From Corallium rubrum (Eukaryota; Cnidaria; Anthozoa; Scleralcyonacea; Coralliidae), in assembly GCA_964035015.1 (NCBI GenBank), contig CAXIUP010000141.1, positions 664,787 through 728,786 of the forward strand: a DNA stretch of 64,000 nucleotides, written 5' to 3'. The translations under genes and the position numbers were made by a program. This document shows positions 55,057 through 62,397 of the stretch, in pieces. How positions within the stretch are numbered: the first letter of the stretch is position 1; each line of letters begins with the position of its first letter. Under the pieces are notes generated by a model. It saw only the letters and a list, made by a program, of their open reading frames with translations, searched no databases and had not been told where the DNA came from.

Positions 55057-55580
55057 ATGGAGAGTTGTCAACTGTGCTTGGATAAGACAGTTAAGGTTTT
55101 ATTTTATCCTTGTCGCCATTTCATCGCTTGTTTTCGATGCAGTAACCTTACGACACGCTGTCCACTTTGCAAGGTTAGTTCTATATTGAGTTTTATTCTT
55201 TTACATTGTTATTTTTCGTTCGTGTTTTCCGCCTTTATTTCCATAAGATGCAACACCTTTTTTCTCTCTTTAGGAAAATATTATCGCCCGCATAAAGTAT
55301 CCCGTAGAAAAGCAATGTCTACTTTGCAACGCAAATAGCGTAGACACCATATTCCTTCCTTGCTTTCATTTAAAAGCATGTCAAGGTATTATTTTGGCAT
55401 TTATATAGCATTTGATTTATCGTGACGGCATCATATGAATAGTAGTAATTCAGCTATAATTAACCATTGTCATGCAGTGTTGATTTTCTGTCTATTCTAA
55501 TTTTAAAGGTTGTGCAAAGAAACTCGTGAAATGTTGCTCCTGCGAAGTAATACTGACAGAGAAAGAAGTAATTTATGTTG
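55057..55580 (+). CDS. tandem RING-finger exons
   Basis: Exon 1 (39 codons) encodes a complete C3HC4 RING: CQLC, then PCRH, CFRC and CPLC. Exons 2 and 3 encode a second: CLLC, PCFH, then C-QG-C split by the intron, and CCSC. Spacing (C-x2-C-x10/11-C-x-H-x3-C-x2-C-x6-C-x2-C) resembles the IAP-type RING. Donors GTTAGT, GTATTA and GTATGT; acceptors CTCTTTAG and TTTTAAAG. Exon 3 ends in phase 1, as exon 4 at 58391 requires. No BIR or other domain is visible. Confidence 0.7.
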
Positions 55581-58500
55581 GTATGTACATGCATAATCAG
55601 TATAATATATAACTCATTAATAATTCATGAGGAAAACACAAAGAAAACCATGTTTAACCCTGTATTGCCCAACGATGTCTTTAGTATTTTACTCTGGCTA
55701 ACGCCAGACGATTTTACTCGTCAATGGAGTGGCTACTGGGCGATAAAGGGTTAATGAGTGTCTCTTGATTTACATAAACTTTAGCTTTGATTTTCTCGAC
55801 TTAGACAACGTTTCTTTAGAAAAATTACTACGCCAATGAACTTACCGAATAGATGGGATTTAGATGTCATTTACAGAATTCGTGTCCGTTCTGTATCGGG
55901 ATACAGGCACTAGGCTTCGCCTCGTGTCTGTATACCCCGATAAAGAACGGCCACTCATTCTGTAAATACTACATATATATATATATATATATATATATAT
56001 ATATATATATATACATATACATATACATATACATATACATATACATATACATATACATATACATATACATATACATATACATATATATATATATATATAT
56101 ATATATATATATTCTAAAACTCGATCATTAATAATTCATGAGGAAAATTCAAAAGAAATTAAGGTTTAATCCGTGTCTGTATACCATTATATATAGATTC
56201 CTCTTGATTTACATAAACTTTCGCTTTGATTTTCTCGACTTAGGCAACGTTTTTTTAGAAAAATTACGACGCCAATGAACTTACCAAATAGATCGTTTTA
56301 GAAGTAATTTACAGAATTCGTGTCCGTTCTGTATCGGAAAAAGGCACTCGGCTTCGCCTCGTGTCTGTATACCCCGATACAGAACACCGTCTGCATGCAC
56401 GATGTCGATTTGCATGTGTCTACCCAAGTGTCTACATGAACTCATGAAGCCATGCATATGTTATAGAACATGCTAGAGGGCATGATATATATTTGTGACA
56501 ATGTGATGATAGAGTTTTTGTAACATGCACGAAGACCATTTGTAACAGTCTGAGCCGTGCCTTCTTATTAAAATACGCGACATCCTTGAATGTGTTAATG
56601 ATGACTATAATCGTTACTGAATGCTTTTCTACACAATTTTAACTTATACGATTTATTCAATTAAGCGTGAAAACGACAGTTAAAAATAGTAAACAAGTCA
56701 GAAACCACAGTTTTTTTCGTATGTTTTTGCTGTACAAGCTGCATATGTCGTAAGTCAAACTCAGACTAGAGAACTAAACAACATCGGTCTACCATCTGAG
56801 TTCCAATGGCTCAATGGTGAGAGCGTCCGGCTGGCATTCGGAAAGTTGTGGGTTCGAGTCCCGTCTGGAGCTCAGAGTTTTTCTCTGAGTTTAACTTACG
56901 ACAGCTTGTACAAAAGTAAACGGAAAAACTTTACCAATTCAAGCTGAAAACACTATAATAACATACGAAGTCAGAAACGGTTAACCAATGTTACATTACT
57001 TTTAAAATCATTCATTGTTTTTCACGGTTCTAATTATTGATACTGAAAGTCAGTATCAACTGAGAGGCGTGCGAAAACGCTGCGGTTAACTTGTAAGGAA
57101 AAAATCTGTATAGCACTTTCTGGAATTCGTTAACCATATGAGTAGAAAGTACGTCAGTTTATCGTCCCGTCACTGCAGTAAGAACGAGAAACTGACTGTT
57201 TTTAATTTAGAAACGTCTTATATAGGTATATTGGATACTGCATACACGGTTTCTACTAAATGTACCTGACTGATACAAAAATATAGATGTGATAATTAAA
57301 GTATTGGAAGGAAGAGTAGTCAAGAAGGCAGGCCAAGAATTTCAAGAAAGAAGACAAGAACTAGAATACATAGTGTTAAAATGAATCATCAAATATTTTA
57401 TTTTTTAACACTATTTTGCTTAATAAGTATAGTGTTAAGGAACTAAATTGAAATTTAAAGGAATTAAAAGATAAAATATTTGATCTTTTCCTTTCACACT
57501 ATTTTAAATTTGTGACCGTTTCCAGTTTGTCTATTCTACCTTTTCCTTTATCTTTGACACTATTTTAATTTAAAACAGTGTTGAAAAATGAATTAAAACT
57601 GATAGTGTTCAAGGAAACGATTAAATATTTGATCTTTTCCTTGACGCTATATTTTAATTTCTGTCACTGTTTCTTTGTCTCTACCTACCCACCTCCTAGT
57701 TTCCTTTTCAACTTCATCACATCTCATGATAATTGTAATGGTTAAAATTCTGTTACTTTAAACGTTAGTAAATTTAAATTTATATCGTTAGTAATATTGG
57801 CTTTTAAATTCTGGCCTATTATTTTTTAGGCGAAGATGCACACAACACACTTTGCCCTTTTCTGTTGTTGCAAAACAGTTATAGGTGGCCAATGGCCATG
57901 CACATGGTCTTGTCAAAAGGATCATTTATGCAAGCAGTAAACAATTCTATACATTGCATACATAGTCCGCATAGTCTAAACCTTATAGAGATTGTTGATA
58001 ATTAATTTGCTTGAAATTGCACAAACGTTGTATGATCACCGTCCTAAATTAATTCAAACGCATATATAATTATTGAATTGAAAGCGATGGTTTTACAACA
58101 TATGAAACAAATTAAATTCGTCGGAAAAGGTAAATTTAAGCTGCTACACAATTTTAAAGAAATGTTCTAATTGACACAGGCATGGGCCGCTGCATGGTAT
58201 AATACTGTAAATTATATCGGCGTTCTGTTTGCGACGTATTTTATCCGTAGCTTTCCTTGGTCGCCTGAACATAGTTCGTTTATACTTCGCTTTATACATA
58301 GTTCGCTATTTGTCCGTGCTATTTATCCGCAAACCGTGACCCACACCAATTAAACTCCCATTTTCATACACAGTTTTTTTTCACACACAGCAAACGAAGT
58401 GAACATGATCCAAGAGTCAGTTTCTGAAAATGAAAAGACAACGCAGAAAGACGAGGGACCGCGTCAACTTGGCATTAAGCGCCAGCGCTTTTCCGATTCA

Positions 58501-61500: not shown

Positions 61501-62397
61501 GCGTCGATGTCCGACAGCCGTAAGAGGAATGGAAACAACGGTAGTGGTGACGGAGAAAGCATGCAGATTGCGCCCTTGTCGGTCGAAGCAGAGCAGTCGC
61601 AGATTATCAGCGTCCCTTTCGCAACACTGGAAAGTTCTTTTTCTAAGGCCAAAGATCTACTTGGTAAGACCTGGAAAATTCACGGGACAGATAACCTCTG
61701 GATGGTTCCAAGTACATCAAACCCCAAATCTCCGCACATGGTCAAAGTGTTTCCCAACAACCGGATAGATTGCGATAAGGAATGTGCCAATCACACAGCT
61801 TACGGTTTATGTTCACATTCTATAGCCGTTGCTGAAGAGGAAAATATTCTGGGAAAGTTTCTAGTGTGGCACAAGAAAAATAAACGCTCGACAAATTTAA
61901 CCGATCTGTCCAATGTTGGACTACCAGCGTCAAGTGGTAAAAAGGGTGTAAAGGCGACACAGAGAAGAAAGGGCAAGCCAAACAAATCAACGGTAACCAC
62001 TCCCTGTGCTACAGTGACCAGCCGAATTGTCAGAGCCGCGAGACCAGCGAAACCTTCACCCTCATTCGGAACATTTACTGTTTCTAATTTGAAGTTCCTG
62101 GACCCAAAAGTTTCTGTCTGTTATGGTTGCCGCCAGTCTCTCAAGCCAATGGGACAGATTCCTTCAAGTCCTGACGATCTCGTTATAGCGAGCAAGGCAA
62201 GAAGAAATTATTTTAAAGATGGTGTTATGGTAACTTCGCCTGAGCTCTCCAATGTTTACTACCATCTAAACCCAAATTGTGTATCCCAGAAGAGCGCATT
62301 CTTTCTCCCTGGGTTAGTACAAGTACCACAAGATCTCAGGCCGCATCTCGATGATAACCACGTAACAGCGCTTCGTGACAGACTAAATGTACATTGA
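55057..62397 (+). CDS. double-RING Mutator-like transposase (six-exon model)
   Basis: Exons 55057-55173, 55274-55385, 55509-55580, 58391-58524, 58685-58775 and 59708-62397 join with matching phases (0, 1, 1, 0, 1) into 1071 codons and a stop. Every intron is GT..AG. Domains: RING 1 (about residues 4-38), RING 2 (54-88), an acidic Ser-rich linker (102-220), a MULE DDE core with Asp 492 (VDATFN), Asp 560 (GTDGEEN) and Glu 692 (NASECLNRY), a SWIM-like C-x3-C-x8-C-x-H (864-879), and C980-x2-C983 with a later Cys/His pair. The transposase part should cut and join the element; a RING would be expected to recruit ubiquitin-conjugating enzyme. That the RING exons belong to the same message is inference from phase and strand. 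A shorter product from the ATG at 58405 is equally possible. Confidence 0.65.
55608..56400. repeat. two dispersed-repeat copies around a (TA)n/(TACA)n array, MULE intron 3
   Basis: Copies of the 7390-7700 repeat at 55608-55975 and 56124-56400, each ending in the GGCTTCGCCTCGTGTCTGTATA hairpin, separated by the TA/CATA array at 55973-56112. The first copy also contains GGCTAACGCCAGACGATTTT (55698-55717). Confidence 0.75.
56799..56877 (+). tRNA. tRNA-like sequence (GGC loop, Ala-like), probably SINE-derived
   Basis: A 7-bp acceptor (AGTTCCA with TGGAGCT), D-stem GCTC/GAGC, anticodon stem TCCGG/TCGGA around loop CTGGCAT (anticodon GGC by position) and a T-arm GTGGG TTCGAGT CCCGT. There is one base too many between acceptor and D-stem. 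Flanking sequence is inverted-repeated (CGTAAGTCAAACTCAG facing CTGAGTTTAACTTACG), so it is more likely a SINE or MITE-borne copy than a host tRNA gene. Confidence 0.45.
56900..58380. other. MULE intron 3, repeats only
   Basis: Several copies of a TATTTGATCTTTTCCTT / CACTATTTTAA segment at 57370-57690. The open frame 58171-58353 has no domain. An alternative acceptor (TTTTTTAG at 57830) also fits phase 1 and would give a short terminal exon. Confidence 0.45.
58391..58775 (+). CDS. linker exons of the MULE gene
   Basis: Exon 4 (58391-58524) follows a strong polypyrimidine acceptor (TTTTTTTTCACACACAG). Its first codon completes with the G left by exon 3 (GCA), and an in-frame ATG lies at 58405, so it could also be a first exon. 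Exon 5 (58685-58775) follows TTATCTTCGTCAG. The encoded linker is acidic and Ser/Asp-rich (SSPSDISDSSDIAIIE), like a SUMO-interacting or acidic patch; no domain recognised. Confidence 0.6.
58862..59460. repeat. (GAATA)n array and hairpin, MULE intron 5
   Basis: GAATA pentamers at 58862-59035 and 59070-59098 with a GAATG block between. A hairpin at 59197-59335 pairs ATTACACGGCGGC with GCCACCGTGTAAT through GAAGATATGAATTTTATCTTC. Confidence 0.85.
59708..62397 (+). CDS. MULE transposase catalytic exon
   Basis: One open exon of 896 codons after AAATTCTAG. It starts DVSVRPATTS and holds SVDATFNVAKHYF, LVIGTDGEENIANAL, LRCEIHLRDNVKRKL and YSQNASECLNRYVKED, the Mutator DDE signature, then IDCDKECANHTAYGLCSHSIAVAE, a SWIM-type zinc motif. 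A basic TQRRKGKPNK stretch precedes the C-terminal VCYGC...NPNC segment. The last 417 bases lie in the right TIR. No stop or frameshift, so this copy may be active. Confidence 0.85.

Follow-up and report, generated by a model that had tools for sequence, protein, structure and literature searches.

A putative Mutator-like transposase gene with two N-terminal RING fingers in Corallium rubrum

A stretch of 64,000 nucleotides from the cnidarian Corallium rubrum (assembly GCA_964035015.1, contig CAXIUP010000141.1, positions 664,787 to 728,786), here called the window, contains near its right end a Mutator-like element (MULE) that probably carries one spliced gene for a transposase with two N-terminal RING fingers of the IAP type. 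An earlier note on this DNA had proposed such a fusion from the sequence alone. This reading is favoured because the joined frame, the splice sites, the RING domains, the aligned transposase, the copies of exon 1 elsewhere, the RING of a divergent relative and the phase-1 junctions of further relatives agree, and these comparisons give good support to a predicted RING-RING/MULE fusion gene within the element. Loci compared with the window are given as L numbers.

Six exons on the forward strand (55057-62397) are joined inside the MULE, as the note had stated, into 3216 nt with a single terminal stop, specifying 1071 residues. Exon 1 (55057-55173) provides the start Met and RING 1, with the zinc ligands C4, C7, C19, H21, C25, C28, C35 and C38. 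Exon 2 (55274-55385) contains a linker and the first part of RING 2, and exon 3 (55509-55580) the end of RING 2, with CCSC instead of CPxC; both end in phase 1. These three exons were assigned from the joined frame and Pfam, and exon 1 also from a PDB profile. Behind the 2.8-kb intron 3 (55581-58390) follow exon 4 (58391-58524), a linker in which Met106 is an alternative start, and exon 5 (58685-58775), an acidic and Ser-containing linker with two strings resembling SUMO-interacting motifs (SIMs), SIIDLTSSS (IIDLTS at 154) and IAIIE (171). Exon 6 (59708-62397) encodes the transposase, with D492, D560 and E692, a CxxH motif, a CxxxC..CxH site and a Cys tail. Splice sites were scored with a generic, self-written matrix and ranked against the GT/AG sites on the forward strand of the window; all 10 reach at least the 89th percentile, with the exon 3 donor at the 97.8th and the exon 4 acceptor at the 99th. 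The joined frame itself is robust. The exact fit of the phases, which the note had stressed, holds as an in-frame join and is a weaker proof than claimed, since exons 4 and 5 (225 nt together) can be skipped and exon 3 joined directly to exon 6, also in frame. Exon 6 has its first Met at residue 231 of the joined protein, behind residues that are conserved in relatives, which places the predicted start of the transposase in an upstream exon. Intron 3 also contains a tRNA-Ala(GGC)-like sequence (56800-56873), whose flanks were read by eye as inverted repeats.

The identification of exons 1 to 3 as RING fingers was borne out by Pfam, in which zf-C3HC4_3 matches two stretches of the joined protein (E 5.4e-17) and Prok-RING_4 is matched as well. 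Among solved structures, the RING part is matched in the PDB profile search by the RINGs of BIRC2 (cIAP1; E 2.5e-8) and XIAP (E 3.6e-8), and RING 2 by cell growth regulator with RING finger domain 1 (E 2.4e-5). By eye, RING 1 possesses all eight zinc ligands and CPLC; RING 2 also possesses all eight, but with CCSC and thus no Pro. Both therefore show the eight-ligand C3HC4 pattern of RING-type ubiquitin ligases (E3), and, judged from these matches, the two predicted N-terminal RING fingers are IAP-type. A tandem-RING gene of the host (L049), with an arrangement which we take to be the Mind-bomb pattern, is 34% identical to the RING part over 76 residues, and its RING 2 is split by an intron that agrees in codon and phase with the junction of exons 2 and 3 in the window. 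Further host RINGs are about as similar, so L049 is one candidate source of the RING exons among several. A RING match at C53:5622667 was considered as a second RING-MULE and rejected: its readable part shows no significant adjoining transposase similarity and reads as a host tandem-RING gene, presumably Mind bomb.

DNA of the RING exons (54900-55620) was found at four places: the window, plus three copies in which the initial part alone is retained, with 207 to 254 bases of the query matched. In L011, RING residues 1-32 are joined straight to transposase residue 598 onward; in L048, 54531-55106 is joined to 61994-62555; and in L039 the first RING residues are followed by a stop and then by the 3' end. 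Since the beginning of RING exon 1 is retained close to the left repeat in each of these deletion derivatives, this exon moves with the element, and by the distribution of its copies it belongs to the mobile unit. Among the divergent relatives L012 is the closest; it is 66% identical in the transposase and bears a RING exon 1 on the same strand, 8.7 kb upstream. This exon is 44% identical to that of the window over 34 residues (Pfam E 1.3e-6), begins like it with a Met that precedes the first Cys by three codons, and retains six of the six ligands of the stretch.

The transposase itself is matched by the Pfam family MULE at E 4.5e-4 and 21 bits, below the curated cut-off of 27.6, and weakly by Transposase_mut. 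This low score is offset by homologous transposases of the same genome, of which there are at least 54 matches (43 of 375 candidates scored), the best besides the window itself being L011 (E 0) and L012 (E 1.4e-271). In an alignment of 11 rows (the window and ten relatives from the genome), D316 and C405/H408, numbered within exon 6, are invariant and D384 and E516 nearly so. The profile of this alignment finds a Mutator-family transposase as its best, weak match in the PDB (E 0.38). Conserved D, D and E columns, together with divergent relatives at most 66% identical, point to a MULE-type DDE transposase. The DDE residues and Cys tail described by the note are thus present; its SWIM-like site in exon 6 is a zinc site of the form CxxxC...CxH, and the joined protein has no Pfam SWIM match. 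Transib elements have a Transib-type core and a target duplication of 5 bp. Membership in the RAG1/Transib group was not found here: the duplications are 9 bp, and the Pfam families matched by the transposase are MULE and, with a weak score, Transposase_mut. Relatives were also sought in viral contigs, where none of 22 pattern matches was confirmed.

The region upstream of the transposase was surveyed in the seven relatives with at least 5 kb of upstream sequence (L012, L013, L014, L016, L017, L026 and L030). RING exon 1 occurs in one (L012), a protein kinase in three (L014, L016 and L030), and neither within the sequence read of the remaining three (L013, L026 and L017), L013 showing only a weak piece resembling a kinase C-lobe (27% over 51 residues). 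A RING conserved throughout the MULE clade is ruled out by these counts, and by this survey the RING head is lineage-specific. The three kinases lie upstream on the transposase strand, possess HRDLKPxN and DFG, and are pairwise 36-53% identical. L014 (transposase 47-48% identical to that of the window) has a kinase with Pfam E 6.3e-37; that of L016 (transposase 44-45%) has E 8.9e-34 and reads open for 415 aa, a stop and a small deletion lying close to the N-terminus; that of L030 (transposase 31-32%) has E 7.2e-29. The coordinates of these kinase-bearing relatives are L047 2737-3679 with L041 1806-2045, L046/L044 (joined), and L075 2081-3768. In L016 and L030 the kinase is followed by a second domain in which C, C and DTHP are conserved (41% over 185 residues); Pfam offered nothing credible for this domain and, for the L030 form, the PDB gave no name either. 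About 3.7 kb upstream of the transposase match of L017, on the same strand, an open reading frame (ORF) of 707 aa (L076 2281-4401, reverse strand) was noted for an end that looks HECT-like by eye; it matches no Pfam family, and the HECT-like identity was rejected.

All three kinase modules end in a common tail, S[LM]xW[VL]T, followed by a phase-1 donor with a score of 6.2 to 8.4; L016 and L030 have, in addition, a donor-like site in phase 0 ahead of the tail. The RING module of the window likewise ends in phase 1. On the acceptor side, eight relatives have alignments starting at residues 182-216, and five of these (L012, L013, L014, L016 and L019, with L014 and L019 near copies) show a phase-1 acceptor before the transposase exon. 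Among four other relatives, a phase-1 acceptor stands at a different intron in L018, L020 and L022, and L021 has none in phase 1. The kinase modules may thus form kinase-transposase fusions, and the N-terminal module looks exchangeable. In the tree of the 11 rows, the window pairs with L012 (100/100), L014 to L017 form a group next to this pair (90/89), and L030 falls outside, on a long branch. From this arrangement the RING-RING head is probably derived, and its simplest reading suggests that an older kinase head was replaced by the RING head, by replacement or alternation through exchange at the phase-1 intron; the order of the swap is weakly rooted, as the kinase-bearing L030 is on the long branch.

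The whole MULE is larger than the 55057-62397 given in the note. It holds all six exons and spans 52544-63919 (11,376 bp), from GGCATACTGTAAAACCC to its inverted copy. Its left terminal inverted repeat (52544-54472, forward) duplicates, at its inner end, the 3' coding end of the transposase, and its right one (61981-63919, reverse) overlaps the last part of exon 6. At about 1.9 kb, with 97.4% identity over 1803 nt and 99% over the innermost 98 nt, they are long inverted repeats of the kind expected of a MULE. The last coding part of the transposase stands inside both repeats (54108-54472 and 61981-62397), so that the deletion derivatives L011, L039 and L048 hold more than one copy of it. A repeat query of 651 bases gave at least 74 matches in the genome (40 of 76 candidates scored). 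The termini GGCATACTGTAAAACCC are common to eight other copies, one right end differing at two bases. Eight copies, picked because two facing ends were listed close together, were read at both ends, and each is flanked by a 9-bp target duplication; six of these duplications are perfect, and the other two contain a single mismatch. For two more copies, L057 and L060, no right end was found. The 9-bp length agrees with the 8-11 bp that a 2019 survey reports for MULEs (PMC6446971). The window copy starts inside a reverse-transcriptase ORF (51808-52674, with a Pfam match to that family), and its right flank, 63920-64000, is the last 81 bases of the contig.

Several observations weigh against a single fused product. 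Exons 2 and 3 are known from the window copy only, and the genome search found no second full-length copy. The RING of L012 is broken after residue 34, and exons 2 and 3 were not found in its upstream stretch, which is partly masked. Homologous MULEs with the transposase and no RING, which the note had named as evidence against its proposal, were found in part: upstream, L014, L016 and L030 show the kinase instead, and three more show neither in the sequence read, beside L012 with its RING exon 1. Of the five relatives with a phase-1 acceptor, three also have AGs in other phases nearby, and a clear phase-1 acceptor is lacking in three of the eight: in L026 the acceptor of the linker exon is in phase 0 and an AG in phase 1 lies deeper inside, L034 gives an ambiguous picture, and none is seen in L030. 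The window copy, finally, has no matching target duplication; since its right flank is also the contig end, a rearrangement or a faulty join at this end is possible. A different reading of the gene, held to be unlikely, is that it makes two proteins, namely a small RING-RING protein from exons 1 to 3 that would act in trans and a transposase that starts at Met106, produced through alternative splicing, polyadenylation or a second promoter in intron 3. Retention of intron 3 would leave the RING exons as a stand-alone ORF of 110 aa, the intron has seven AATAAA/ATTAAA sites, Met106 in exon 4 could start a transposase without RINGs, and an aphid MULE of the Ghost clade has its RING in a separate 420-bp ORF (PMC6446971). 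Two proteins fit less well with the strong exon 3 donor and exon 4 acceptor, with the end phase of exon 3, which matches the exon 6 acceptor, and with the kinase modules of three relatives, whose frames stay open up to a phase-1 donor.

The RING exons may also be regarded as host exons captured from a tandem-RING gene without function or selection, like the passengers of Pack-MULEs. The junction in RING 2, shared in phase with L049, and the occurrence of exons 2 and 3 in one copy only are consistent with such a capture. It is nevertheless rated improbable: L012 keeps the ligands of RING exon 1 at 44% identity, which makes this exon older than one recent capture, and in the window the RING frames are intact and the splice sites good. 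A further proposal would refine the fusion rather than replace it, making the protein a SUMO-targeted ubiquitin ligase whose SIM-like linker recognises SUMO-modified proteins of silencing chromatin and marks them for removal. Besides the two strings in exon 5, the L030 family (EFIDLTALDE) and L026 (KIVIEINDSDEEEDD) have linker patches that resemble SIMs when inspected by eye. Of 20000 shuffled linkers, 114 contain the strict pattern; this comparison was made only after the motif, which is short, had been seen. A regular expression for an acidic-flanked SIM found no match on the forward strands of six relatives, and this expression would also miss the patches of the L030 family and L026. SUMO-targeted ligase function is thus a lead only, and is given a low likelihood.

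For the favoured fusion of two RINGs with the transposase, a mechanism may be outlined. The transposase part would bind the element ends and so deliver the RING E3 there. RING 1, with CPxC and its eight ligands, would recruit a ubiquitin-conjugating enzyme (E2), while RING 2, without the Pro, would mainly support or pair. RAG1 is said to ubiquitylate itself. By analogy with RAG1, the likeliest targets would be the transposase itself and proteins bound nearby, with self-ubiquitylation and removal of the transposase after strand transfer as the first choice and an attack on host silencing factors as the second; both the E3 activity of the RING fingers and any anti-silencing role are putative. 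A broader proposal, to which little weight is attached, is that the MULE clade swaps signalling enzymes (a kinase with a Cys/His protease-like domain in some lineages, a tandem RING in this one) onto the front of its transposase through the phase-1 intron, the transposase being a regulator of host chromatin that here would act as a SUMO-targeted ligase and clear silencing complexes from its own element.

The view of the note, which knew of no described example, is wrong in part. RING on a transposase, and a MULE with a RING, are already known; no tandem RING-MULE transposase fusion and no kinase-bearing MULE was recognised among the matches listed, often a small part of the total, from a mostly non-subscription literature, and the tandem fusion and the kinase-bearing relatives are new to us. 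RAG1, RAG1-like proteins and Chapaev are DDE transposases with a RING in their N-terminal region, and the RING of RAG1 is a ubiquitin ligase (PMC4411706, PMC7204232). A text of 2015 gives RAG1 and two Chapaev subgroups as its bearers and states that it is in no other known transposable element (PMC4411706). The window protein resembles RAG1/Chapaev (Transib superfamily) in having RING on the N-terminal side of a DDE transposase, whereas those belong to another transposase superfamily and carry one RING beside other zinc fingers. The Ghost clade of MULEs, from aphids, spiders and four cnidarian sequences, includes the element of the black cherry aphid with the RING-bearing 420-bp ORF mentioned above (PMC6446971). 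That element is likewise a MULE with a RING, but its RING is in a separate ORF, its transposase is truncated and no inverted repeats were identified. MULE 37_Pi, of a Phytophthora sub-group of group 50, is tabulated with a C3HC4 ring finger in the same survey (PMC6446971). By this table entry it resembles the window element in being a MULE with a C3HC4 RING. Proteins of the Ovarian Tumour type are ubiquitin proteases. The cnidarian MuDR-6_HM is tabulated with 'Ovarian Tumour Gene' and differs in that this domain is not a RING; the words 'kinase' and 'ubiquitin' are absent from the main text of the survey (PMC6446971). Plant MULEs carrying Ulp1, to which the note had referred, are indeed known: in VANDAL and Kaonashi elements the captured protease is linked to escape from silencing (PMC13317346). 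There it is encoded by one of three separate genes, whereas in the window element the RINGs are predicted on the transposase.

RAG1 illustrates how central to its host a transposase with a RING can become. The gene described here would extend such a fusion, with RING at the corresponding end, to a second transposase superfamily, and relatives have a kinase upstream in that place. The relatives form a natural comparison set with the same transposase and different regulatory heads, in which control of host proteins by a transposon through ubiquitin or phosphate becomes directly testable. Elsewhere in the window, an ORF on the reverse strand (41709-43208) encodes a P-element-type transposase with TNP-like RNase H and GTP-binding domains, and in a repetitive stretch at 17670-19416 all three forward frames are open for 1.6-1.7 kb.

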